Origin: Eremomyces bilateralis CBS 781.70
Taxonomy: Eukaryota; Ascomycota; Dothideomycetes; Eremomycetales; Eremomycetaceae
NCBI RefSeq assembly: GCF_010015585.1
Contig: NW_022985067.1
Location: forward strand, 1,400,526 to 1,464,525
Length of the DNA: 64,000 nucleotides
Direction: 5' to 3'
Shown: piece by piece, positions 1,170 through 38,214 of the stretch
How the letters are laid out: each line of letters begins with the position of its first letter
Numbering within the stretch: position 1 is the stretch's first letter
Position numbers and translations under genes: made by a program
Notes under the pieces: generated by a model
Database searches by the model: none
Told to the model about the DNA's origin: nothing
Seen by the model: only the letters and a program-made list of their open reading frames with translations

Positions 1170-3625
1170 TTATGCTGCCCGCTCTCCTTTTAAACGCTGC
1201 ATATCGCCTTCTAAGACCCTGATTTTGCTGCGCAACCCAGCGATGGTCTCTCGCAACTCTCCACAATACTCTCCTTTGCATGTGCAAGTCTTTTCCGTGC
1301 TGGCCTCGTAACTGGCATCGTTGCCAATGGGGACGCAGTTATCCTCAATTTCATCCCTTTCATAGTACAATGCATCAGTTGGGCTGGCAGCATTTGACCG
1401 TCCACCACCGGTAGTCAATGACGCGAAAGGTGGCGTATCTTGCGAAGACATGCGTGGAGACTGCCCTGATGACGTGCGACGGTATTTATGTGTGCGGTTG
1501 GATCTTCTCTGGAGAAAAGACGTGTGACGAGTATACCCGGTTTCAGGATCTGAGTCAAGGTCAGTGAGCCAGAGGTCGTCGGATACAGGAGGAGCTTCTG
1601 GAGGACACGCGTCACGGCCGTTATGGAAAGAGACGGTGGTTGACTGCGGTCTGGAAGGAGGTAGAGTTGGCACCAGAGGGCTGTTTCTAGAGCTACTGGC
1701 CTGTGAGACCCGTCGTTCAATGTACGGAGCGAAGAGAGATCGACTACTGCCCTCGCCAGCACCGGCACGCCTTAAATCGGCGAGGATATTGCTAGTCTTC
1801 GAGCTCACACTCGATCCAGAGGGCTGGCTGCTTCCCGAGCTGACATATCTGCCCGGTACGCGGTACGCGAGGGTCCGCTTGCGATTGACCTTGTGAGGTG
1901 GCTTGAGGGGAGAGCCCTTCGCAGGTGTATTTCTGATGGGAGAGGGGATGGGAGAATACTTCAGGTTTGTACCATTTCCGGTAGCTGGACCAAGCGCTAT
2001 TCGATCGGCATTACTTTGGCTCGGCTCGTCTTCGTCCAAAAATGTGGTGCTCGAGATCCGTGGACGCGGACGGGCGCGGCTGCTTCGTTTCGGAGGCGAT
2101 TTCGATTTACGCCGGACGACCTCGCCTTTAACGGGCGAGAAGAGGTCCATGTAATGGTTCCCTGGCATAGGAGGAAGTAAAGCGTGCATGTTCGCACTGG
2201 TAGTGTGTTTGATTGTTGTATTCGGTTCTGGTAACCCAGTGGTTTCGTCTTCTAATCCAGCTGGTGCGGCTGCCTGGAGCTGATGACAGCCAGGAAAGGG
2301 GTTCGAAGATGTATGGGAGCCAGTCGGGGACCGTACTATAGTTCCGAAGCTTTTCGTGTTTTCCGGAGCAACCGTAATGTCGACTATTTCTTCCGCCATG
2401 TTCTGAGCACGTCGTGCCGATCCTGGAGGAACCTTTGCTGACTCCCCCTGGATCCATTCCACATCGATGATCCTGCCGCCATCAGGGTTGATGACCTTCT
2501 CACAAAGACAGTGTCCATCTGAACTGAACAGCAACACCTTCCCATCTTGTCGCCCGACAGCAATCACCATCTTTTCTTGAGACACTCCATCACCGATGGT
2601 CCTCGAGCCTGTTCTCCGAGTCGAAGCTGCCAAGTGCCTTTTCTCGTCCCACTTCTCCGGGAGGAGTGACAGCGACGTCCCCGGTCCCTGCACATGCCAG
2701 GTCTTCAATATCTTCCCACCGTAATCGAAATTCACTATCCTGCATTTTCCATCGCAGCCGACCGTTACCGCACGACTCCGATGCCCCGGTAAGAACTTCA
2801 CGCCCACGATACCGGAGAGCGCACTCCCATGCCGTGCGACAGTGTGCAGCTGGGCAAACCGGCCAATCTCTCCTCCACGTCCTTGCTTGGCTATATGAGA
2901 CTGCGCGGATGCGCGGGCATCCATGCGGACTAACCGGGAAGCGTCATATGCCGCCAACGAGCCGTCTTTGAAGGAAAGGAGGAACACCTGCGGCCGCTCA
3001 GGGTGGAATGACGCGGTGGAAACCGGAGTATCTGATACACCGGGCTGAAATAGGAAAGGCCGTCCTCCAAGGAGTAGGTTCTGCAGGTATATCGTCGGCG
3101 GAGACTCGGATGCCGATAGCAGGAGCTGGGAATTCCGCGACAGCGCGAGGACGGTCGGCGGGGACGGATGGGTATGCGCAGGGGCCAGCAATCGCGACTC
3201 CTGGATTGAATAGCACTCCACCGCATTATGAAGATTCGTCGTGAAGTAAAGCTGTCTTGAATTTTCCGCAAATTCTAGTAGACGGATATTGCCCTGCCCA
3301 ACTATTAGTCAAACTGGCCTTTCTAGTTATGATAATGTGCTCGACATGCCTCTATCCCTTTTGGCCGATAACTGCGCTCCGTCTGCAATACCAGTGACTG
3401 GCCGTCAGCGACCGCAAGCGTCCCACTTCCATCTCGCACTTCCTTGGCCGCGAAGATCCCCGAAGATTCGGATTGGAAGATGCTGTTGATGCCATCGCTG
3501 TCCCAGGAGAGCACGTTCCGCTGCGTGGTGATGACAAGGTGGGCATTCGAAGGGAACTGGAAGGCTGACCGGGGGTCGGCGTGGTCGGGCGAAGGGTCGC
3601 CATGCGCAATGCGCGAGGATGGCAT
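1170..3625 (-). CDS. WD40-repeat protein with C-terminal coiled coil
   Basis: Two exons (3625-3350 and 3251-1170) give a 785-residue protein. The N-terminal third has WD40-like blades (for example LVITTQRNVLSWDSDG, VKFLPGHRSRAVTVGCDGKCRIVNF and MVIAVGRQDGKVLLF). A long Ser/Pro/Arg-rich disordered middle follows, and the last 40 residues form a heptad-like coiled coil (ELRETIAGLRSKIRVLEGDM). That layout resembles NEDD1/GCP-WD, the gamma-tubulin complex targeting factor, but I cannot prove the assignment. The intron at 3252-3349 is read as GC-AG, because donor GCATGT joins KGIE to LYFTTNLHNAVE in frame. In-frame coding (IYDLLEPRQF) extends upstream of 3625 to a stop near 3667, so the true start may lie in a small extra exon (ATG at 3775 is one option). 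The stop codon lies 15 bp from the hAT relic. Confidence 0.75.
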
Positions 3626-3775
3626 GAATTGTCGAGGCTCAAGGAGGTCATATATGGTAGGGGCTGCTCATTGGAAATGTACTGCATAGGCTACGCAACT
3701 TAAAACTTGATGTTGGAGGAGTTCGCATTTGTTGTTAAACAGAGGTTGGCAGGGGATCAATGAAGTACGAGTCAT

Positions 3776-4510
3776 GGATAAGGTATCGGGAGGGGTCCGA
3801 CGAGTCAGTCAGACCTCTCCCATTTAATGGTACGGAGAATGACGGTCAATGGCACTATCAATTGGGGGCACTAGGTACTGATGATCCTCCATGGAGGATT
3901 ATCGAGTGCCAGACTTATGCTTGGTCCTAATTACTAGGCTCCTGTTCAACCACTTTTCACACTTGCATGGTTCTCACTCATCCAGTCAGGTACGATTTTC
4001 ATTCTATAAGTGACGAAAGCAAAAAGTTGAGGATTTCGCTCTGGATAGGACGATTGAAAAAAAAAAGGAATGATCAATTTTGATATGGATTCACCGTATG
4101 GCCCCTTTGACCATTAAATATCCTGCCTGCCCCTTCCTTTCAGCGTCACACGGTGTCAGCGAACGGTCCTCCATTGCGGCAGAGGTATAGGAGATTCGAC
4201 CAGTCATGCATCTGGAACAAACGGATGACACAGATGATGCAGATGATCAGGTCTAAGTCTTGGACGTATGCGATAGGCGTGCCTCAATGCAGTGCCTCCG
4301 TGGCTCTTATGTGTCGGCACGTTAAATCTATCCGGCTCCTCGTAAGGTACTGATCTGGCTGGCATCGAAGTTGAAGCATCCGGATGGAACGCGATTTGTT
4401 CAACAGCCTATAGCCGTGGGCAGTGCGTAAACGCCCTGAAGCGAAAATGGTCCATTCGAATAAAGTGTTTCGGATCCGAGACAACACATGTTGCCTCTTT
4501 CGGGGCGCGA
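3776..4510. other. Intergenic, no gene seen
   Basis: This separates the 5' end of the WD40 gene from the 3' end of the PIN-domain gene. It contains an A-rich run near 4048-4062 and no reading frame with recognisable motifs. It presumably holds the WD40 promoter and the PIN gene 3' UTR. Confidence 0.6.
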
Positions 4511-5827
4511 TTAACTGGGATCCCAAAGCAATTGTCGTCCACCGCGACCGGTACGTCCGGTGGGACGCGGTCGTGCATATGATTCGGGGTCGATCGGCTT
4601 GGTCAAATCCGTGGGAGCAGGGGGCCCGGAACGAGAATGTGGACGAGACGAGAATCCACTGTGATTCCGTCCTGCTCCGCGACCGCCGCGGCCACCGCGA
4701 GATGGCTGGGGCGCGCGAACAAATGCGTTCGGATCGAAAACGCGGGTATTATTGCCGTTGGATTGTTGCGATTTCGGCCGTTTGAAGAGCACGACCTCTT
4801 CATCGTCATCGACGGCTGGCTCCATTTTCGCGGGCACTTTCGGTTTTGCGGGAGTTCGTGGCAGTTTGTTCTCCTTCTTGTACAAGGCGAGACGGTTCTT
4901 GTAGTCTCGATCCTCCCGACCGATGACTTCGCGAAGCTGTTCAAGGCGCTTGGCGCGGATGCCGAAGCGCTGTGCGAAGTGAATCTTTTGTGCATCGTTG
5001 GTAAGCAGGATGTAGTTCGCGAGCGCTTCGTCGGGGTTGCTTTCTCTGTGGATGCGCCAGAGGGCGTGGTTGAAGAGGGGTCGGAGGCGATATGGGATGG
5101 TCGACTTGTAGTTGTACTTGCGAGGCGTCACTGTTCGCTTTGGGATGTCCGCATCCGCCAATGGTGACACTGAGTCGTGCTTCGTTGGCGCCTCCTGGTG
5201 AGGTGAGGCATATTGGACCTCTGGGCTCGTGGAGGAATACTGGGACTTGATTGAAGGCGTCTTCGAGCGCTGGCCTGCGCTCAAGACAGAGCTATCGTAC
5301 TCCTGCTCAGACACGCCATCAAGTCTCAGGCCGTCCACATCCGATGTGAGCACGTCCGAGTCATAATCTTCTTCCTCAGTTGAGAGGAGCGTTTGCGGCA
5401 GCAGGAAATTCTCCACTTCCGACCATCGTTCGAATACTTCGAATCCACCTGATTGTGTCAGCCCCCGAAACCTCAACACATCTGCAGCCCAGTTGTACCT
5501 TGTAGTTGGACGGAGCCCGATGTTTGCACAGAGGGAGCGGAAGTGATCTCGTCGAGCCAAACGAGGGTATCCTTAGCGGCGACCGCAATCCTACCGTTCT
5601 TCTTCTTCAGCTGGTCGAGAATTCCCAATGCTGTCACTGTCAGTTAGCGAAACGCACGGCCATCATCAGCCAGCGAGCGTACTGTGAAGTGGCACATAGA
5701 GTCGGATTGCGCCGATGCTGATCCATCGCTGTATTCCATCTCGAGTGCCTTTCTTGACGCCGGCAAGTAGAGCGGTATCATCGACGATGCAATTGAAGAC
5801 CTTACGCTCGGGGAGTTTTACATCCAT
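4511..5827 (-). CDS. PIN-domain protein, fungal
   Basis: Three exons (5827-5683, 5630-5499, 5448-4511) encode 404 residues. The N-terminus, VFNCIVDDTALLAGVKKG followed by WISIGAIRLYVPLH, LGILDQLKKKNG and AKDTLVWLDEIT, has the beta-strand/acidic pattern of PIN-like nuclease folds: an early Asp pair (VDDTAL) and a strand-helix ending at LDQLKK. The middle is acidic and Ser-rich; a conserved helical block (YRLRPLFNHALWRIHRES, then KIHFAQRFGIRAKRLEQL) follows. The tail is RG-rich (RGGRGGRGAGR), suggesting RNA binding. Intron 2 (5449-5498, 50 nt) has a clear CTGAC branch site. Intron 1 ends at a doubled acceptor (TGACAG TGACAG), so six nucleotides may be included or not. Start at 5827 was chosen because the conserved block begins there; the frame stays open to 6010. 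Substrate unknown. Confidence 0.7.
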
Positions 5828-6593
5828 GATGAGGTGCGGGTGAGATCTTCCGTCGTGTGGTGTCCGAAGGCGGTCGAGGTCGAGCGGGGAAGTGTTATCG
5901 CGGTGTTCTGCGAACAATGAGTTTTCGAGCCGAAGAAGCGATACGAGCGAATATTGGTTTCCATACCGTTGTTCTTCTGGGAAATAATTCGAATATTCAC
6001 TGGCTCGCATTGTCTATCGCAAAGCGAGCGTGTAGGAACCGTTCAGCGCAGGCTGTCAGCGCCGACGGAGTGAAACGGTGCAAGAAGCGCTTCGCTCATT
6101 GTTCCCGAGATGTTGATGAGAGACTTAGAAGGATAAACGCCGGTCATAGTCTGACGGGCAAGGTGAAAGTTGGTAAATTCACTGAGGTGGTCGTTGTGTG
6201 GGTGAACCGGAAGATTTCACCATCAAGGGCTGGTGGTGGAACTCCCCAACCAGAATGCCATCATCAGCAGCGATATTCGGTCAGGTGTGGTGGGGGATGT
6301 GTACCGCACCAAACAAGCCCTGCACAATATGATATTAGGATTCCATTCGTCCGACTTAATCGATCATATATCCTTGATATTTATACACAAAGTACCCAGG
6401 CGGCCAGGCTGCAAGAAATAAGAATGTTACCTATTCAGAGTGTCTTTCCCATTGCAAGATCCCACAGCCTTGTTTCCCGTACCAAGACCTGTAGTGGTCC
6501 ATACCATTGCGGCTATGCGCACCATCATCCTCATTCAGAGTTCAGCAGCATCTGCTGAAAGGCTGGAAGAATAATCTCGAAACATGATAGGGC
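5828..6593. other. Intergenic, promoter of the PIN gene and 3' end of TSNAX
   Basis: A 233-codon open frame on the plus strand spans part of this and the PIN first exon, but it has low-complexity, unrecognisable content and is antisense to real coding, so I do not call it. No RNA gene or repeat seen. Confidence 0.55.
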
Positions 6594-7588
6594 TTAACCT
6601 CGATTCTCCAACCTTTCGGCCTCATTGATGTCTGGCATCCATCCTGTAGGCCTTTCTGCTCCCCTCACAACGAGCCCGTACAAGGACTTCTCGACCTTCT
6701 CCACACATGTTTGCATCACTCCCATCTTCTTTCGAACCTGGTTCTCGAGCCACGACTTCCTCGGAACATCTAGTGCCTCTAGAGCGACTCGGAGCTGTCG
6801 GAGGTCCGAGAGGACATTCCCTTCCTGCTCATTATCTCCGACATCATCTCCGGCACCATCGTCTACATCCATCCGATCGGAATGCTGCAGCGTGTTCTTG
6901 CTAGTCGATCGTCGAGGTTTTGATCGGGCTGGAAGTTTTCCTGTCGATGCCATTGCCGTAATACAGAATCTCATCAATTCGCCGACCATATCGAATATGC
7001 CCAGGATGTAGTCGTCGACGGTTAATGTGATCTTGTTTGCCCCTTCGACCAAGGAGTTGAGGCTGGACACCGCCGTTTCATAAGGGATCAAAGCTTGGTT
7101 CTCGAGATAGTATTGGAAGGATAATGCCTCCATAAACTCCTGATGGCCTCCTGATATATTTGATTGATATCGATAGGCATTGAGTCCTTGGAGGTCTGAA
7201 CAGATACCATTGTATTGGGCCTTGATATTGTCCAGGTGCGGGTCAATGGTCTTCTTGATTGGGGGAGAGATCGGTTGGTCCAATTCCCGTGTTCTTCAAT
7301 CGTCAGACTGTATCTCAAACGGAGAGATAAAGACTGCCGCTGTAGAGGCATACCTTTGTAATGAGAATATACTAAGTTCAGTGTCAGCGCCTGTACCAGG
7401 GCTTAGAGAAAGGCAACATCTTACATCTTCTTACTCGCTGCAGTAACATCTCTGGAAGCTTTAATCACTCGTTCTCGGCGCGCATGGTGCTCGTCTAGTT
7501 CGACTCTGAATGTCTCGAACATGGACTGGAATGGGCCGTCAGATGTTGAATCCATGCCGGCTTCGTCACGCGATCGCTTGTTCGACAT
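6594..7588 (-). CDS. Translin-associated factor X (TRAX)
   Basis: Three exons (7588-7425, 7371-7354, 7293-6594) give 293 residues, the usual TRAX length. Hallmarks are FQSMFETFRVELDEHHARRERVIKASRD at the start, YRYQSNISGGHQEFMEALSF in the middle, and SDLRQLRVALEALDVPRKSW near the end. The N-terminal KRSRD could be a nuclear-import signal. TRAX pairs with translin to form C3PO, an RNase that trims small RNAs and tRNA fragments; the catalytic residues are carried by the TRAX subunit in characterised complexes. The middle exon is only 18 nt (IIFSLQ), needed to join ASKK to RTRELDQPISPP in frame. Start at 7588 (MSNKRSRDE) is preferred over the in-frame ATG at 7606. The gene is divergent from the next gene to the right. 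Confidence 0.88.
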
Positions 7589-8238
7589 GGAAAGTGCCTG
7601 AAACAATTTGCTTTACTGAAGGATGTAGAAATGAGAAACCCGGGATTTAATTGATCGTAAACGCTCCGAGATGAAATGAATCTGTTGGAGAAACCGAATC
7701 AAGCTCACGAGGAACTGATGTATTCACGTGTGGCGCTCGATAGAGAGCTGGAGTGCCACCTCAGGTGGTTCAACAGTATGGCCTGGAGCCGATTTTCTCC
7801 CAAACACCTGACCACGGTTGCAATTGTTGAATTCAATGCTGATAGTATGAACAGTACCTTCGAGAGATGGCCGACCTCAAACGAAACAATTCCAGACAAG
7901 GAGGTGGATACGATACGGGAGGCCTCAGGCAGCCTTGACCTTATTTCAACGTCAACAGAACTCGGTTCTTTTTCTATTATTTCTTTCGAGTATCGACATC
8001 TTTGGGTGGGAATACTGTATATCGACACCTATATAAGCGGTGTAGAATCATTCATCCGAAGGATAAGTAGCATCTAGCTGCAAGATCCAGCCACTGGGCT
8101 TGCAGTGTCTCTGTGGAACTAACCCTCTGGTATGGCACAATGAAGCCTTGGGTTGTTTAAGTCACCTTCCTTTGTCTCAGTCCCTCCAGCTTTCAAGATG
8201 TTCATGCATTGCTGTTAAGATTATGCAAGGAGAGTGGA
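7589..8238. other. Divergent intergenic region
   Basis: This 650 bp stretch lies between the TRAX start and the first in-frame ATG of the XPF-like gene. A 133-codon plus-strand frame at 7676-8077 shows no recognisable motif and I treat it as chance. The coding frame of the right-hand gene is open back to 8161 without an ATG, so an upstream exon may begin in here. Confidence 0.45.
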
Positions 8239-11042
8239 ATGGCGCCTGGAATGTTTGAAAGCGTTGTTGCCGCTCGACAATATGCTCAATCAATCGGAAT
8301 CACCAAGGACTTTGCTCATGAGAGAATCTCTGAGGCTCGATATCTCCCGTCTCCCTCGGAACGCGAACTTCAAATGCCAATTAATGGGCCCACATTCGAC
8401 GAGCTATGCAGCAATGGTACCCTCAAGGAACGCATATCCTGGGACAAAGACTCCCTTGCAATGTTCAGAGACTCGATTCATCAACCAGATCAACCCAGCG
8501 AAATGATCCTTTCGCGACCTCAGCACAGCATCTTTCAGCAATTGATGTTTGAGTTGCCCTTACTAACAACCGACAATGACCATGATATGCTATGTTTTTC
8601 CAGAAAAACGGATCCGGCCTTCTCGGAACTCGATTACCCACGGCGACCGAAGGATGACTGCCAGGATATGCCTGAAGACATCGATCCGGAGTCCAAGGCG
8701 AAGCAGACGGTTTCGAAGATTATGAATGAGAAGTTGGTGGTCGACAAAACTGATTTTCTTGCATTGAGAACATATGTCAGCAAGGAGCCCTGGAGGCCAA
8801 ATGAGGAACCTTTCGATGTCCAGCGATCAACCATGGTAAGAGGGAATCAAGGTTAATTCAATGACCAGCTAACATGTGGTTAAAAGGGATTGAAAAGCCC
8901 TCTAACTCCGCCACTCTTGCCGCTCAGTCGATCCCCTTCGCCATATGTACCGTCATCTCCTGCACGCGATGTCCCCATTCCGTCTGAGCATAGCACCAAT
9001 TCTGCGGCAGAAGATGCGCGAATGATTGAGGAGCAGATTCTGCTGAACGACACGATCCTTCCAATGACGCCTGAGAATCAATTTCTCAAGTTCAAAGCCT
9101 CGAAGGCAAATGATGGACCTGAAGAGCTGGACTGTGATCCATCATCTTTCGGGCTCTTAAGCTCTCCGGCTGCGAAAAGAACGAGAAACGACTTATTGAT
9201 GGAAGTACCTCTGACTCCTGGATTCTCCTCAGAACGATCACCAAAGAGACTCAAACAGATCACTCTTGCAGACGTCGTTCCTAACCCAGATTTGAAGTTG
9301 CCGTCAGCAGCGATAAGTCCTATGGTCGCTTCTGACGAATCACCATTTGAAGCAATTCTGAACGAGCAATTTCAATCCATAGCCGACGATGCGAAAAGGA
9401 TGACTGAAAATGAGCGGCTTATCGAAGCCGATTCGACGAATAGGATGTCCGTTCCCATAGTTCACGATGGGAAGCACTGTGCCCCTTGGGAGGAGTACGG
9501 CCTGCGCAGTTGCAGAACAGGCGAAGCTTCCGAGCTTGCTGCACAATCGAAGCTGCTCAAAAGCATCCAAAAACAAGCTCCTGAGGTGTTGAATCCTTGG
9601 CACGGTGCACATCTCACGGAGACAAGGCTGAAATGGATACCATTTCTAGGCAGAGCCTCAAAAGTGACAATCGACGAGGGAATCACTAGCAAAGTGAATA
9701 TTGAGAACTACTTGCGACAGCTAACGCTTGGTTCTGCCTGTACGAGCGAAGAGTGTACCTGGAAACCAGAAGTGCCAAGTTTGCTTGCAATGAGCTGGGG
9801 AGATGAAAACGTCTTGGATCGTTGCCAATGGGCTGCAGAAGATGACATCAATTGTCTGACATCGCAACGTAAAGTGGAACTTGATGGACGCCATCAGGAC
9901 CATGACAGCAGGAAAGGTATCGACAATGTCGGAAAGTCTGCTACGGGAACGGATCGTCGGAACTCCGGGATTCGAAATTCTCAAAAGAACATGAAAACTA
10001 CGATACACTCGATGTCTACGAGAAACTCCGCCAATAATTATTTCCAGTCACTTGGGGTCTCCATCCCGATCTCTGCAGCTGAAGTAGAAGCTCAAAGTTC
10101 GCCGAAAACGCGTGGTGGCGATGCGTGGCCACTGGGTTTTCAAGAGGATGAAAACAGAGCGTTTCATGGGGATAGCGAGCTGGGTTATCAGTCACTGCAC
10201 GATCCCCCTACTCCTTCGGAGCCTCGCGCTGTCATCGTTTCATCAATCCTCTTGTCAAAGCGAGGCCTAGTTCGTTCGATCCGAACCCTTTATCCGTCTC
10301 TGGTCATGGTCCAGCGCGATTGGTCCTCACACTTGACCTTGCTTGACCGCGACCTTCTCTCCTCATCGTCACCAGTTCGGCTCTCCGACGAAGCCGACAT
10401 AATCTATGGTGCAAATAGAGCCGTGATTCTATCCACTGTGCTTGAGATCAGTCAACGAGCGTTGCCCGGCGCCGAGCTTACTAGCCGGGAATCTGGCATC
10501 CATGGTCGGATCTCAAGAGTAGCTACCCGATATGCCGAAGGTGAGCTTGTGGTTCTAGTGCATGAGACGATCCACACTCGGTCGACCAACGAGCCCCAGG
10601 AGCTGGTTCGGTTGCGGAAATGGGCAGTGCAAGAGCAGAGAGGCATTGGTACTCGGATTTCCATTGCCTGGATCTGCGGAAGCAATGATGACGATACCGC
10701 CAGAGCGATAATAGGCGAGGTAATCAAGACTAATGATGATTGTCGAAACATACCTATCCGGAAATTGGAAGAAGAATCAGAGGTAAGAGCAGCTTAATCT
10801 GTTATTGAATTTAGGAAGTACTTATCGCACACCAGGGAGAACTCGTCCTTCGTCGTGCCGGAATCAACGCCCTTGCCGCTCTCTCCATCCTGAACATCCT
10901 ACAAGAACGCGATACGACATGCGCGTCGGACGACATTGCTCTCGACACACTAGCACGAATGGGCCATCACGAACGCCTACGTGTCTTCGGTCACCTCGTC
11001 GGCGCCCAGGCACTAGACAAACTGAGACTATATTTCGGATAA
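8239..11042 (+). CDS. Large protein with XPF-like nuclease/HhH C-terminus, possibly Zip2/SHOC1-like
   Basis: Exons 8239-8835, 8887-10782 and 10836-11042 give about 899 residues. The N-terminal 600 residues are Ser/Pro-rich with scattered motifs (SPAAKRTRND, SSERSPKRLKQITLADV). The C-terminal 280 residues look like a degenerate XPF-family nuclease fold: AVIVSSILLSKRGLVRSIR, YPSLVMVQRDW, then EADIIYGANRAVIL and RYAEGELVVLVHE. They end in helix-hairpin-helix-like segments (LRRAGINALAALSIL; MGHHERLRVFGHLVGAQALDKLRLYFG). This arrangement resembles Zip2/SHOC1, meiotic crossover factors with inactive XPF domains, but the assignment is inferred from pattern only. The last intron has two frame-compatible acceptors (10814 and 10835); the longer intron (53 nt) is the more usual size. 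The exact start is uncertain. Confidence 0.6.
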
Positions 11043-30920: not shown

Positions 30921-30945
30921 CCAGACGCAAAGGTAGCCTTAGATA

Positions 30946-31009
30946 CCTCAGGCCACCGTTCGGTGGATCCTGGTATCCCCCGAAGGTGATTGGCGGAGCC
31001 AGCCTGAGG
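30946..31009. repeat. Cluster of short inverted repeats before the DUF6589-type gene
   Basis: CCTCAGGC (30946-30953) pairs with GCCTGAGG (31002-31009). GATACC (30942-30947) pairs with GGTATC (30972-30977). CCACCG-TT-CGGTGG (30953-30966) forms a tight hairpin. The GC-rich cluster stands out against the AT-rich surroundings and lies 50-110 bp before the likely start codon. It could be a fold-back end or a promoter structure. Confidence 0.4.
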
Positions 31010-31057
31010 CGGAAAGTCCCGCTTTGGCGAACCTTTCCCGCCACCTTATATGTGGTG

Positions 31058-33906
31058 ATGTATGAAAGTTATCTTGAATTGATTGTTGAGACCAGACATA
31101 TTCACAATACAATACTAATATCATTTGAATCGTTAGATCAAGCTTTACATTATCTATTAGTTTTTGAAGATCATCGAAGATGTCTCCCTCCTCTAGTTGT
31201 GAAACTTCATAACTACAGTATGCCTATCTAACCTTAGAATGATCATACACTAAATGATAAATAGTTTCAGACGCAGACGATACATTATCTGAAGACGAAT
31301 TGATTGAAGAGGCCGAAAATACTCCCTCCAACTTTTCCCTTCCGTTCACCGATGATGGTGCCCTGAATACTACACCGAAAGCTCAAAACAAAGCAACTCA
31401 TACCTGCTATGCCGAAATCATGTCAATGATGAAGAAGGGACATTTTACTAGGAACCAGTTCCTCCTTTTTATGATCGATAAGCATACAGGGCAAAGGCAG
31501 ACTGGGAAGCATCAACTTGTTGAAGGGTTTCTTCTTGATCTTCTCCTTGATCCCGATACGCAACGCCATATCATTAAGCATAGGCCTAAGCGTATTCTTT
31601 CTATTCTTCGACACATCTTTACCTGCATCATCTCAGACGAATTTGAAAGCCTGATGCAAGACGAGTCTCAAGTTTTTGGGGCATGGGATGCTGATAAGGC
31701 CCCTGGGAATGTTGGAAGCATGCATCAGATTGTCCGACATAGGGCACCATTATTCTTCTCTATTATTGAGTCAGTTGCCCAGCCCCTAGGCAAGGCGAAA
31801 AAATCTGGCCAGAAACCTCATCATGGACTTACTACAATGATTGCGTCCTCATTGGCCTTTTCCCGGCATAAAAAGCTATCAAATAATCTTCCTAAGAGAA
31901 TTGGGCTTACATTACAAGCTGCAGGTCTGTCTCGCAAAGGTCTGAAGTATCTCCATGCCTTTGGGATGACTCCTACATATAATACGCTTCGAATTTCTAC
32001 TCAGGAGACAATCGGCACAGAAATGGTATTTTTCTACAATCACGATACTATATTCCAACTTTCTAACTACATCTAGCATAGCCTTAAACAGTTTGCAAAA
32101 TATCCTGGACTGGCCGTTGCAATGGACAATTGTGATGGGCATGAGCGACCATCCCATCAGCGGATTGGGAATACAGGCGAAATGTTCAGCTATACATCTG
32201 GAATTGCAGCAGTCTGTCCTCGGATACCTGAAAATGGCCTTTTACAGACAATGCGGAGACCATTTACCCTCCTGCCTCCAGAACTCTTTAACCATGATGG
32301 AGTCCAATTACCTAATACTTCAGGTATCCAAAAACAGAATGCCTTGTTCCTAATCCGGCAGGCAATTGAATTAGCCTTCCCTGATGTAACTCGACAATTG
32401 AAGGCGAGACGGATTAAACTTCCTGAGTTTCCAATAATCGATCGACTCCCAGCAGAGAAGACAGTGAAGAATAACCTTGGGCCTATACCAGTCAACCAGT
32501 CTACAACAAATGGGAATCACCAAATCCTCGAGAAGATATTCTTAGATTTTTTTAAGTTTAATATCGAGACAGACTTCACTGAACGCCTCTTCCTCGTATA
32601 TGGAGATGTCAAAATAGTCATACTTCTCCGGAGCTGTATTAAAGAGCGTGCCGACTCTGAAAGGCCCTTTGATGCTTATAACTGACTACATCCAGTCCCA
32701 GCCCTTTGGCATACACGTTTGAATTTCCTTTATCTTATTACCCGCGAGTTCTATGGCATTGAAAGCTGCAATTTCCTTACATCTACTCTTTGTCACAGCG
32801 CGACCTTCCTTAACCGACGTGGCTTTTCTCGCGAGAATGCCTCATTCAAGATCATGGAAGAAGTAATTACACATAGCTTTTATGCTAGAGTTATTAGCTT
32901 CGTGATTGAACATGTTACAGGCAGCTTCTACCCCCCTAGCATTGAACAGCTTTCAACACATCTAGGAGGTCTATCACCAGCTCAATTCCAGTCATGTATT
33001 GATATGGTTTACCAACAGCTCTTCAGTGCTGACGCTCGGGCCCAGTCCCAAGTCCTTTCTTACGAATCAGAGACGCAGACACTCCGGAACTGGCTATCCC
33101 CTACAGCATACAAGCCCATCTCGGAAACAATCTCACCCAAGACTTTCAAAAAGTATGCAGGATCCTCACCTCCACAAAAGAAACTCAGCGAGATCGAGCG
33201 TATAAACCACCTTCGATTCATTTCAATAGTTGAGGCCTACCTGACCCTCCGATATGCAATCAAGCTTGGTAATATTGGTCAACTCCGACGAGCACTTACA
33301 CAGTGTGCCATTATCTTTGCAGGAGCTAAGCGAGACCAATACCGATATGAGATGCTGCTCCTCTTTACCCAAACGTGTACTCAAGCCTCCGACAAGGATT
33401 TGCAGGATGCTATCCTAGCTGGGGGCTTGATTAATAATCATGAGAGGAGTCTAAACTCATGCCATGAGTTTGATCTTGACGTGGAGCATTTGAATCGGAA
33501 TATCAAAGACTACCTATTAGCCCATGGGACAACATCGACATTTGGCATAGAGAAGCTTTTCTCCCATGGAGTATGGGCTATGTCTGCCACTCAGAAGATC
33601 TCTAAATACCTAGAAGGCACATTTAAGATCAAGATCAATGACTCCCATTCTATCAGCTCAGTACAGCGGCATATCATCCATCTTGCATTCTCAATCTATA
33701 CTGCTCGGAAAAAGGAGGACAATGATGAACACGATGCTTTATTGCTACCATATGATCCATATAAGATCATTACTCGGAGTGGGTCATATAAAGGGAAGCC
33801 AACGAATAACTTTGTACATGGGCAATACTTTGAAGCAGCGCCACTTCTATCCCTTGGGCGCTATGAACTGTTACCATACTTTGAGGAATTTAATAAAATA
33901 GTTTAA
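31058..33906 (+). CDS. DUF6589-type protein, one internal TGA
   Basis: Exons 31058-31217, 31271-32025 and 32077-33906 would encode about 914 codons. Both introns (53 and 51 nt) have good donors, and the second has a TTCTAAC branch. Recognisable family features are TLRISTQETIGTEM before the second intron, then VAMDNCDGHERPSHQRIGNTGEM, the GD motif in FLVYGDVKIVILLR, and HPVPALWHTRLNFLYLITREFYG. I recognise these as the pattern of the fungal DUF6589 family, whose function is unknown to me. The spaced Asp residues (MDN, GD) make an RNase H-like (DDE-type) fold conceivable, but that is inference. One in-frame TGA (32683-32685) stands where a tryptophan is expected before LHPVPALWH. The frame then stays open for 407 codons. 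Next genes are convergent. Confidence 0.62.
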
Positions 33907-34030
33907 GTAAACTGAAGAATTAACTAAAGAAGCTATTGTCTAATGGCTTATATATGAATCACATTCATCGTCATATGGTCAGGTAAGAAGTAATATCAAG
34001 ATACTATCCCTAAGCATATAAATTGGACTG

Positions 34031-34947
34031 CTAGGGCTGCCTGCTTGCTTTGAATTTCTCAGTCGGCTTATGACTTCGCTTCCCATAAGCCCTTACTATC
34101 TCTTCATGCTTTGCTGGAGTCTCATCATGTTGATATTGATCACCCCTATTTCGTCGGAGAGGGAGGATAGTATGATCTGTAGTCATCGGCTATAAAGGCA
34201 CTGGTTGGTTTACCAACTTCTGCCCTTGCTGCCGTCGCTTAGTTGGTGTCAGATCATCATCACCAATAGCAGGCATTGGCATTGGAAGTTTAAGGGGGCT
34301 GCTACCCTCAGGGAGGTTCGAAATATCTGGAAGAGTATGCAGCTTTTGTACTTGTGTAACTTGACGTCGTTTCGGGGATTTTGGGTAAGCACTAGTACCT
34401 TGTGGAACTGGAGGTTGCTGATGCTCTTGTATAGGCTGAGGAGCATCATCGACAGCTGGGCAAGGCTTTAAATGGGGCGTAAAGGTTTGATTTCCAGCAT
34501 CAAACAATAAGGATAGGTCAATCACTCTATCTTGTGACCTTTCCTGCTCTTGAGCTTCCTTTGCCAAAGCCTGCCTCCTTTTTTCTTGGATCTTGCGCTG
34601 TTTCTCCTCTTTTAGTTGGTACTGAGCATGTTCATAGCTCTCCAATGCTTTGCCTAGGCTTATCAAATGTCCATCGTCACATATCCATTGGTTTTGTGGT
34701 AAAGCCTTACGAATTTCTAGCAAATCTCCAAAAAGAAGGATATAATATCCATCTGGTTTCTGTTCCTTTGGTATCCTCTCCTGAAGCTGATTGTATGTGT
34801 TTGCAAGTATTGATAGTTCCTCACGGAAGATCAACCATTGCCAATCTGGTGCATAACACCTGTCCATAGTTTGATATTCCCTTTGCGCCTCTTTATAGAA
34901 GTAGAGTTTAAAGGATCAACTAATGGTCGAAGCCTCTTTGTAGCCAT
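34031..34947 (-). CDS. Coiled-coil, basic protein of the island, interrupted
   Basis: Unrecognised. The longest uninterrupted part (34867-34190, 225 codons) begins DRCYAPDWQWLIFREELSIL, has a Lys/Glu/Gln helix likely to form a coiled coil (YQLKEEKQRKIQEKRRQALAKE), and ends in a Pro-rich basic tail (SPKRRQVTQVQKL, PTKRRQQGQKL). Coding character extends both ways. Upstream, MATKRLRPLVDP at 34947 and LYFYKEAQREYQ lie in frames differing by one nucleotide. Downstream, after a TAG, the same frame reads PMTTDHTILPLRRN to KPTEKFKASRQP before a final stop at 34031. It follows the helicase on the same strand 48 bp away, so the two may be functionally linked. The basic, proline-rich, coiled-coil make-up suggests nucleic-acid or protein binding. 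Confidence 0.45.
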
Positions 34948-34995
34948 TGCTTTGCTCTGGCTAGTCTTGGTTTGTGTATCCAAAGTAGATAGGAG

Positions 34996-36690
34996 TTAAG
35001 GGTTACAACTTCCACAGCATGTTATAGGGTCGCGTTCTAGTGTTGTGCAATCGTAGTGTGTATTAATTAACTCCCGGATACACCGTTCACCATTGGTATT
35101 GCAGAGCTGGTAAATGATGTTAGGGAGAAGTCCACGTCTCTCTGCCTCTGATGGTCTTGCTTTCGATTTCTGGCCTTTGGGGGTCTAGCTCAAATGGTCT
35201 TCGCGAGATGAGGATCCTTTAGCTCCTTGTCCTATTAAAGGCTCTTCCTCGTCATCGTTATCATCTGAAGTAGATAAATTGAGGTCTCCTGGATCTCCTC
35301 CTTGGGGCAAACCCCCCTGAGTAGTCTGGTGTTGATGCTCCTTTTGTATATCTTTTGCACGAGTTCGGTGCCCTTGGTAAGGCTGTTGGAAGAAAAGGAT
35401 GGCAGTCCCAGCTGGCACGCTTCGAGCAGCACGCCCAAACCGTTGTAGGATGAGGTTGATCAGATTATCAGGGGGGATTTTCCATACAATAGATCTTGTA
35501 ATATCTGGAACATCGCAACCATGTGCAAGTGCATCTGTTGAAAGGAGGATCCTAATAGGGGAATAGTAGAATTTTGAGTATATCCCTTGTTTCTCATGTT
35601 CGCTTAGGTCAGCATGGTACTGTGCCACTGTATCATTCGCTAAAACCTTAGAATATCCGTATTCTTGGAACCATGAACGGATTATCTTAGTGCAATCCCG
35701 GATTTCGCGCTTTGCCTTAAAAAAGATGATGGTTTTATCAATTTGCTCAGGCGTAGGTATAAACCCCTTCCCTTGACAATGGCAAGCACCACCACATCCT
35801 CCTGATAGGTCTTGTTCCCTGTTTGCACAATGTCGAAAGGCACCTTCGAGCAGGAAATTTAACCCGAGAAATGACTTCTGTGTATGTATAGGGATCTGCT
35901 TGACGATATAGGTAAGGTCCTCTTGGTTGGTGTCTGTTTGGATAACCTGGACATGGTCTGACAATTCTAGAAGCCCCCGGACATAGGATAATGTTAACCG
36001 GTCCAGAGTTGCGGTGGTTCCAAACCATGGAATGTCTTCAAGCTCCCGTCGGACAATACGCAGTTCTGTATAGGAATGGCGGAACTTATCACCCCAGTCA
36101 AAAACTAGGTGAAGCTCGTCAATGCAAATAGAAAGCAGATGGGACCGAAATAGCCGATCCTGGATAAGGATACGGAACCTCTTGCCAATCAATTGCTCTG
36201 GTGAGGTAATAATGTGAGTGTAAGCACCTTTCTGTACTTCTTGAATCGCTCCATCATTCATGTTTGATGCATTTAAGAAGATAGGTCGGGTTCTAGGGAT
36301 CGATGAGATCTTCTTTTCTTGCTCTTTACCAAGTGCATCAAGGGGGACGATCACAATGACAACAGATCCTCTAGAAAGGCATGGCAGTGCTTGATGGATT
36401 AAGCTCTTGCCAAAGGATGTCTTTGCCGTTAAGATCAGGTCTCTCTGTTTGAAAAGGAGGTGTGCAATACACCGTGCCTGGTCATCCTTTGCTTCGAACT
36501 CAAAGAAGGACTGGATTCCTTCCTTAACCACCAATATTTGATCCTGCCATTGTGCCTCCATACACCGTTCCACTTTCCTTTGTATATCCTGCAGCTCCTG
36601 CTTCTTAATTGGGTCGACTTCAGAAAATAGATTGATGTTGGTTCGCCAGTCTTGCTTTGGTTTAGGCCCACGTTTCTGCTTTGGTGGCAT
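34996..36690 (-). CDS. RecQ-like DEAD/H-box helicase of the island, one internal TAG
   Basis: A superfamily 2 helicase. The first 501 codons carry Walker A AKTSFGKS (residues 89-96), the DELH box (191-194), motif III GTTATLD (224-230), a RecQ-type YHADLS (358-363), motif V LLSTDALAHGCDVPD and motif VI QRFGRAAR (416-423). A Cys/His cluster GGCGGACHCQG (298-308) sits inside the second half and may bind zinc. After a TAG at 35185-35187 the same frame continues for 62 codons with LPNIIYQLCNTNGERCIREL and ITCCGSCNP. This matches the zinc-binding tail of RecQ proteins (CIREx..CCxxC), so the true end was probably at 34996. It lies 48 bp before the coiled-coil gene on the same strand. Such helicases unwind DNA; a role in element replication or excision is inference. 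Confidence 0.72.
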
Positions 36691-38214
36691 GAAGAGAATG
36701 TACTATACTGTATAAGGACTCTGGATAATAGGGGGATTGACTTTGATGGAATATGTATTATAATTTAAGGATTATTGGAGCAAGTTTGCTAGCGTTTGAA
36801 GGAATAGAATAGGGATAGTTCAGCTAAACTCGAGTTAATCTCGATATCCAAAAGGGGGAATTGTTTTATACGTAGATATCCTTACAGAGAATGATTGAAA
36901 GTATACTTTATATATGTTTTGGATGGATATATGGATCTTAATGGTGTATATTGTGCATCGGGAGTCGAGATGGATGGAGATATGCTGAGAATCCTTAATA
37001 GCCACTAGTGCAACTTGACTGCAATTGATCTCAGCCCCTAGGATGTAGGGACACTTTAAAAATAGATAGTCTGAAAGGGAGTAATCAAAAGTATAGTATC
37101 TATATGTTTTCAAAGGCCAATTGGTTGTTGAAAAGCAGCAGTATGGCCTTCAATATGTTCGCTATCGTGATTTTGGTTGGGAAAGCTTCACTAAACCCTG
37201 ATATTTTGGCTCAGACGCTGTTGGTAGTGGCGCCAAGTCTTCGGATCTTCCTTGTCACGTGCCTGTCAGTGGCTGGGGTATCTGAGACTACGTAAAGGCA
37301 TGAATCAGGAATTCGGCATAACTACAGTGATTACCTACGGTAGTTAATAGAACTGTGATTACCAAGCAGAACAAGGCGTACCTCCAGTTGAGCAGATTCC
37401 ACGTCAACTATAATATCCGTACTATCTAAATGGAATAATAATACCAGTGCCAGACGCGTAACTCCGAAGGGATGCAGTTCCTTGTGCGTTTCACAAGTTT
37501 CCTAATTACCTACCTACTCTGTTTTCTGCTCTTATTACCGCCCAAGACTTGGTAATAACAGCTAACAATGGCACCATGAACCAGTTGTCATTACCAATAA
37601 AGGTTTTGTAAGCACCCCCTTCCAGATGTGATCTCGGTTTAGCAAAGATCCCAACTGTTGCAGGGCTAATTTCCCATACCTGCCCCTATGATTATCACGA
37701 ATCAATATTAATAATACCAGCTTACCTGTTATTCCCCTTGCGCGGACCATTGGAAGGAATCTCACGATGGCCATCTTGGCAACTTCGGACCGAAGCGCCT
37801 AACACCGCCCATCATCACTTTCGCCAATATCTCGGCTCGCTCACTCGGACGAATTGTAACGGCCGCCATGGAGCCCACTTGATATCGTGGCTTCATGGCG
37901 CAATCCCCTTACTCGGGTACATACACCGAGGAGGGGGAGCGGTGCCGACGAGCATACAGCTATGTACGGGAAGTAATGTAATCAGTCTCCTTTGTCTACC
38001 ACATCCTTCCAATTAGTTAGCGGGGCAAGCCACTACGCAACGGTGTTCTTCAATGTCGGATCTTCTCCTCTCTGTCTTACCCCTCTCTGGTCGATTGCCG
38101 GGACTTTGAGAACTATATATTGCGGCTTGATCCTCGCGATATCCTCCTCGTCAGACGTCAATCCACCCTATCTAAACATCAAACAAATACTTACATCTTC
38201 ACACTAAAGCCGCC
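36691..38214. other. Intergenic, right flank of the island
   Basis: About 1.5 kb, very AT-rich up to about 37100 and closer to average afterward. No motif-bearing frame is visible. The island should end somewhere in here. The last 200 bp holds the promoter of the hydrolase, with CTATATATTG at about 38112-38121 as a possible TATA element. Confidence 0.5.

Follow-up and report, generated by a model that had tools for sequence, protein, structure and literature searches.

The locus described here raises the question of whether a group of neighbouring fungal genes forms a mobile unit and, if so, of what kind. The window, i.e. the whole stretch of DNA analyzed, consists of 64,000 nucleotides from Eremomyces bilateralis CBS 781.70 (contig NW_022985067.1, positions 1,400,526 to 1,464,525). 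An original prediction, made from the letters of the window alone, placed a DUF6589-type gene, a RecQ-like helicase gene and a coiled-coil gene at positions 31058–36690 and proposed that these were parts of a single mobile system. The element is likely a two-gene DNA transposon, where DUF6589 is the inferred transposase and the RecQ-type helicase would be an accessory protein.

The unit is larger than the interval first proposed. It starts at position 30934 and ends at position 37290, which are the ends of its homology to a second locus, L023, and it carries an 8 base pair (bp) duplication on each side. (L-numbers denote fetched loci and C-numbers denote contigs of the host assembly; all copies are from this one genome.) The features of the window copy are as follows.

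30926–30933, no strand: left target-site duplication, CGCAAAGG, identical at 7 of 8 positions to the right flank CGTAAAGG
30934–37290, no strand: the complete transposon, a family A copy of 6357 bp, aligned to L023 positions 2365–8415 with both ends identical in place
30934–30954, plus strand: left terminal inverted repeat (TIR), TAGCCTTAGATACCTCAGGCC; 15 of the first 18 bases agree with the right end read inward
31261–32025, plus strand: N-terminal exon of the DUF6589 gene, an open frame; the start codon is not settled, and the same frame is found in L023
32026–32076, plus strand: intron of 51 bp, in phase, GTATTT..CTAAC..TAG, read directly
32077–33906, plus strand: C-terminal exon of the DUF6589 gene with MDN, GD and WH motifs (PF20231); one premature TGA at 32683–32685
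34190–36690, minus strand: RecQ-type helicase gene, one gene, broken (PF00270 and PF00271); stops at 35185–35187 and 34996–34998, frameshift near 34905–34920
34190–34915, minus strand: C-terminal part of the helicase, earlier taken for the coiled-coil gene; L023 reads from the helicase tail into it in one frame, save for a single TAG
37254–37261, plus strand: the word GTCACGTG, located 29 bp inward of the right end; the same word is at the same place in L023
37270–37290, minus strand: right TIR, which pairs with the left end
37291–37298, no strand: right target-site duplication, CGTAAAGG, which pairs with the left flank CGCAAAGG at 7 of 8 positions

An all-vs-all blastn comparison of 20 loci and part of the window shows L023 (C1:982365–988415) to be the sole further copy of the window unit, aligned in two pieces of 92.0% and 92.8% identity. 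The window ends compare as a TIR pair, TAGCCTTAGATACCTCAG versus TAGTCTCAGATACCCCAG. The guanine plus cytosine (GC) content of the element is 0.434, compared with 0.529 for the remaining window.

DUF6589 has 18 matches in the genome. With the best 50 candidates scored, the window helicase has 44, many of which are weak and represent other helicases. A RecQ match is found within 2.3 kb of the DUF6589 match in 14 of the 18 cases, the four without one being on C12, C3, C24 and C5; the genes are thus found together at other places in the genome, and this one of the refuting conditions of the original prediction does not hold. These 14 pairs are not 14 separate elements, e.g. the matches on C35 and C44 overlap, display a common target duplication and are probably two overlapping parts of one copy. 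Contigs C7, C17, C20, C28, C29, C35, C37, C44 and C50 end inside elements, probably because the copies are near-identical. Given their common target duplications, C35 and C44 are probably neighbours, and likewise C50 and C20. Grouping by blastn identity gives four families and a more distant set:

Family A: the window copy and L023
Family B: L024, L027, L028, L029 and part of L037, with 99.8–99.96% mutual identity
Family C: L025 and L030–L033, with 99.8–99.98% mutual identity when L025 is left out
Family D: L026, L034, L035, L038, L040 and L042
Set E, more distant: L036 and L041

The element has a size of 6.0–6.7 kb; it falls into four families or more, of which A to D are distinguished here, and copies are up to 99.98% identical. 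L025 (6016 bp) and L026 (6658 bp) each lie whole within one contig; their reading frames are long and open, and their 8-bp duplications are exact. L038 and L039 seem very poor in GC, but this is an artefact caused by stretches of N.

The TIR starts are TTACCTCAGCAAGCTCAGGC in families B and C, TTATCTCAGYTNGGNCTCAG in family D and TAGYCTCAGATACCYCAG in family A. With up to two mismatches allowed, these words are found genome-wide 79, 53 and 13 times respectively, as opposed to 0, 3 and 5 times for the reversed words. Nine of the 79 B/C-word occurrences are D-like TTATCTCAGCAAGCTCAGAC ends. Six of the 13 family A occurrences have at most one mismatch, and four of these six belong to the termini of the window copy and L023. 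A sample of 20 inward-facing TIR pairs (10 with the B/C word and 10 D-like; further pairs exist) was compared over the 20 bp outside each end. An exact 8-bp duplication is present in 13 of the 20 pairs, a match of 7 out of 8 in two, a 9-bp match in one and none in four; mismatched pairings used as a control (n = 380) average 2.06 of 8, and a single one reaches 7 of 8. The two ends are 0.5–3.3 kb apart in 19 of the 20 pairs, which is under the full element length, and 6.4 kb apart in the remaining pair. Short, internally deleted derivatives of the element are thus present.

A nested insertion provides both states of one site. Five uninterrupted family C copies (L025, L030–L033) read CAGGCTATTTGTTCGAGG / CCTCAGGCTATTTGTTCGAGGAG and represent the empty site. 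The filled site contains a family B element in L037/L028 and in L027, with GCTATTTG on both sides, the left side being read from L037 and the right side from L028 and L027. As aligned, this filled and empty pair is decisive for mobility. The elements thus display the general marks of cut-and-paste TIR transposons, i.e. TIRs, a duplication of fixed length and an empty site in which the duplicated word is present once. The proposal that a single mobile unit inserted here and then decayed is supported by this pair along with the common ends, TIRs, duplications and second copy.

The B element is found at the same position, close to the end of the C element, in two genomic places (L037 with L028, and L027), whose outer flanks differ, GATCAAGG and TGGTTGGC. 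The B and C elements may have moved together as a composite, or else B struck the same site twice.

The two genes converge, as originally described. The DUF6589-type gene is on the plus strand, and PF20231 matches it with E-values of 1.1e-9 (open reading frame, ORF, 32077–32685) and 3.6e-37 (ORF 32686–33906). The TGA at 32683–32685 is the only lesion in the C-terminal exon. The TAG at 32074–32076 is the 3′ end of the intron and not a lesion, and the frame also breaks at the corresponding place in families B, C and D. The claim of interruptions stands to the extent that both genes are broken, and for this reason the window copy is termed a dead member of family A. An ATG at position 31180 followed by a first intron is a possible alternative start of the gene. 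The N-terminal exon gave no convincing Pfam match.

The helicase is on the minus strand, and its ORF displays DEAD and Helicase_C matches (9e-14 and 5.3e-13). Past position 35185 the frame continues as ..REDHLS*TPKGQKSK..CCGSCNP*LLSTLD.. and a frameshift then leads to the 34190–34915 ORF. In relatives the helicase is a single ORF of 834 (L025), 946 (L024), 953 (L034) or 955 (L026) amino acids (aa). Since the frame runs through in the window apart from the lesions, and since relatives have one ORF, the helicase and coiled-coil ORFs are one gene; the three genes originally proposed are thus reduced to two, the supposed third being the helicase C-terminal part, split off by two stops and a frameshift. 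This part matches only its own family, at two places in the genome. The intact L024 helicase matches TIGR00614 (recQ_fam) at 2.8e-34, which is below the curated cut-off of the model. Its closest known structures are RecQ helicases, with ATP-dependent DNA helicase Q1 at 1.7e-16. In L024, L025 and L023 the helicase core is succeeded by a CxxCNP motif, a putative RecQ zinc site.

Repeat-induced point mutation (RIP) was considered as the cause of the decay of the window copy; by the usual cut-offs there is no RIP signature. The TA/AT index is 0.76 in the window element, 0.72 in L023 and 0.58 in the rest of the window, and the (CA+TG)/(AC+GT) index is 1.45, 1.44 and 1.23 respectively. Slight RIP may have affected the window element, given a TA/AT index somewhat above that of the flanking DNA.

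The ratio of nonsynonymous to synonymous substitution (dN/dS) was calculated in ten comparisons. Those of lineage B/C give 0.14 and 0.14 for DUF6589, 0.23 for exon 1 and 0.19 for the helicase, and family D gives 0.15 for DUF6589 and 0.42 for the helicase. In family A (window versus L023) the values are 0.33 for the DUF6589 N-terminal exon over 175 codons, 0.27 for the C-terminal exon, 0.13 for the N-terminal part of the helicase and 0.74 for its C-terminal part. Nine of the ten values are thus between 0.13 and 0.42, the tenth being that of the family A helicase tail, which is hardly kept by selection. By this sequence measure both DUF6589 and the helicase show purifying selection. The dS values between B and C vary by region: 0.35 for DUF6589 exon 2 (L028/L030), 0.86 for the helicase (L024/L025) and 0.83 for exon 1 (L025/L028), where the C copies used are not the same and L025 and L030 themselves differ by a dS of 0.19. 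This suggests that B and C are mosaics that arose by recombination or gene conversion between lineages.

DUF6589 is probably the transposase. The assignment is by elimination and by motif, as this self-bounded TIR element has no conserved gene other than DUF6589 and the helicase. Five residues, D17, D177, D199, H212 and E425 (numbering of protein P0001), are invariant in five aligned proteins from four families. Candidate active-site residues are the D in YDNF/MDN, the D in GDQ/GDV, the H in FH/WH and the E in YxxEML, and the YDNF motif is also found in the set E copies L036 and L041. This D..D..H..E pattern is consistent with a candidate transposase active site.

Several observations weigh against this picture of the element. 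No transposase match was found in Pfam and NCBIfam for the element proteins; the Pfam scan covered seven proteins (five DUF6589 exons and two helicases), of which the C-terminal exon proteins match DUF6589 only. A DUF6589 profile compared with solved structures (PDB sequences) gave no match, the best E-value being 0.17. The single-sequence structure model of the window DUF6589 has a mean predicted local distance difference test score of 32 and displays no usable fold. As to the ends, the target duplication of the window copy has one mismatch, the L023 flanks show no recognizable target duplication, and in 5 of the 20 TIR pairs of the sample there is no 8-bp duplication with 7 or 8 matches.

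The alternative that survives best agrees on the mechanism and differs on novelty: the element would be an AcademH transposon and DUF6589 the fungal Academ-type transposase, with a slightly shorter duplication. This has somewhat less than an even chance of being correct. Published systems are cited here from passages of the papers concerned. AcademH is reported from Basidiomycota, Ascomycota and Mucoromycota with a helicase of the DEAD/Helicase_C type (PMC10799480), and annotations of fungal Academ elements include recQ_fam helicases (PMC6416283). The E. bilateralis element resembles AcademH as a fungal DNA transposon with a RecQ-like DEAD/Helicase_C helicase. The length is also similar, as curated bivalve Academ elements have a mean of 5.6 kb (PMC10294476), compared with 6.0–6.7 kb here. 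The duplications however differ. AcademH is described as having duplications of 9 or 10 bp along with a helicase, and AcademX 3 or 4 bp along with a nuclease (PMC10045372), whereas here 13 of the 20 pairs have exactly 8 bp duplicated and a single pair has 9 bp. The TIRs are as in any TIR transposon; AcademH was compared by its description.

It is improbable that DUF6589 is an accessory protein and that mobility depends on a transposase acting in trans from another locus. Neither gene displays a recognized transposase domain, as such an arrangement would predict; on the other hand, DUF6589 is under apparent purifying selection in the four families compared, and 14 of its 18 matches have retained the helicase as a neighbour.

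Identity with KolobokH is still less probable. KolobokH, a DNA transposon described as found only in fungi, encodes RecQ (PMC9587614) and is in these respects like the present element. The passages on Kolobok however give duplications of TTAA, 4 bp in length, and a helicase that is downstream of the transposase domain, whereas here the duplications are 8 bp of varied sequence and the helicase is a separate, convergent gene. Compared by description only, the 8-bp duplication fits neither AcademH nor KolobokH, yet it is near that of AcademH. The original statement that the genes fit no standard transposon family is right only in part, as fungal DNA transposons that encode a RecQ-type helicase (AcademH, KolobokH) are already described. 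Zisupton/Dileera (KDZ) elements also have 8-bp target duplications (PMC12730594); the text of that paper does not contain the term RecQ, and the scanned DUF6589 proteins match no Pfam transposase family, although Pfam may not hold every KDZ model.

Least probable is a telomere-linked RecQ repeat of subtelomeric DNA that has DUF6589 as a chance neighbour: several copies do lie at contig ends, and repeated RecQ-type helicase genes are reported from chromosome ends in several fungi, including DTX-chim_G199 of Colletotrichum higginsianum, which also has helix-turn-helix and DDE motifs (passages of PMC4522978 and PMC5576322), but the window copy is internal (1.43 Mb into a contig of 2.39 Mb), the TIRs and 8-bp duplications mark dispersed insertion, the contig ends fall inside the helicase of copies 99.8–99.98% identical, as for collapsed repeats, and no (TTAGGG)4 is present anywhere in the assembly, thus chromosome ends are not placeable. 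A Helitron was rejected, as Helitrons are defined as having neither TIR nor target duplication and the element has both.

The insertions of lineage B/C display a further property, a choice of target. The word RTCACRTG, presumably a basic-helix-loop-helix site (E-box) bound by a Cbf1-like protein, is found within 60 bp of the insertion at all 13 two-sided B/C sites, and at three of six one-sided B/C sites. The 13 consist of four sites from the first loci, the nested site included, and nine of ten further sites fetched. The tenth, C1:1824815, does not have the word; on its left it adjoins another element, for which reason it is counted among the one-sided sites. The long-flank sample does not extend to at least six further B/C pairs (C3, C5, C8, C14, C21 and C40). 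The chance of the word per two-sided site is 1.4% from its genome-wide count (3043 in 26.6 Mb; 1335 for the word read backwards) and 0.45% from random window positions.

Since RTCACRTG had first been spotted by eye, an unbiased word count was run on 12 sites, one having been dropped for a repeat in common with another. The top hexamer is CACGTG (10 of 12) and the top heptamer is CACGTGA (10 of 12), with a binomial tail of 2e-22 (window background, with no correction for how many words were compared); the control word, read in reverse, is at 0 of 12. When 31 flanks were blasted all-vs-all, only three were alike (C15, C27 and C1:1824815), besides internal repeats in C4 and C17. Genome-wide, CACRTG is 12–42 bp outside 21 B/C ends as compared with three D ends (Fisher P = 1.6e-4, with totals of 63 and 57 ends tallied from the TIR-word matches). 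The property is not general. RTCACRTG is within 60 bp at neither of the two family A sites and at none of the five D sites with longer flanks (two two-sided and three one-sided); the E-box effect is seen in lineage B/C and is not informative on the window copy itself.

In the proposed mechanism, DUF6589 protein recognizes and binds the TIRs, cleavage would take place at TTA or TAG, and the protein would then link the element to target strands at positions that are 8 bp from each other. The role of the RecQ-type helicase, as an accessory specific to the element, would be to unwind or remodel the DNA, either at the gap left by excision or at the donor site. The place of insertion in lineage B/C would be determined by tethering to a protein that occupies RTCACRTG.

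DUF6589 may represent its own eukaryotic transposase superfamily, with 8-bp duplications, TTAYCTCAG/TAGYCTCAG TIRs and a dedicated RecQ helicase, one lineage of which is steered to the E-box RTCACRTG. This is put forward tentatively, and we consider it rather less probable than its contrary. The literature searched does not mention the DUF6589 family. Among the literature matches listed (titles, abstract starts and selected passages) there is no description of a DUF6589 transposon, nor, in what those matches display, of E-box-directed insertion for a DNA transposon. Relatives of the element were not found in the viral contigs or prokaryote genomes searched.

Three loci show other sequences in or beside copies. 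In L041, on the reverse strand at about positions 2042–4600, an E-type copy appears, as judged by eye, to be broken by a reverse-transcriptase-like sequence (FPQGSTLSPALFILFISDL..). An ORF directly adjoins a D element at L034:5788–6474, and we take it to be like the C-terminal part of a pogo/Fot1 transposase. L039:4476–5023 contains a lone 570-bp C-type DUF6589 piece with 88–89% identity, which adjoins an assembly gap.

Many DUF6589 proteins in fungi are of "unknown" role. If DUF6589 is its own superfamily, many of these would be transposases. The family, to which no function had been assigned, gains a candidate job. The element also links a RecQ-type helicase with TIR transposition and 8-bp duplication, and in B/C it presents a lineage of DNA transposons that chooses sites next to one transcription-factor word. 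The compact two-gene element together with its derivatives of 0.5–2 kb may offer a handle on helicase help and site choice in transposition.

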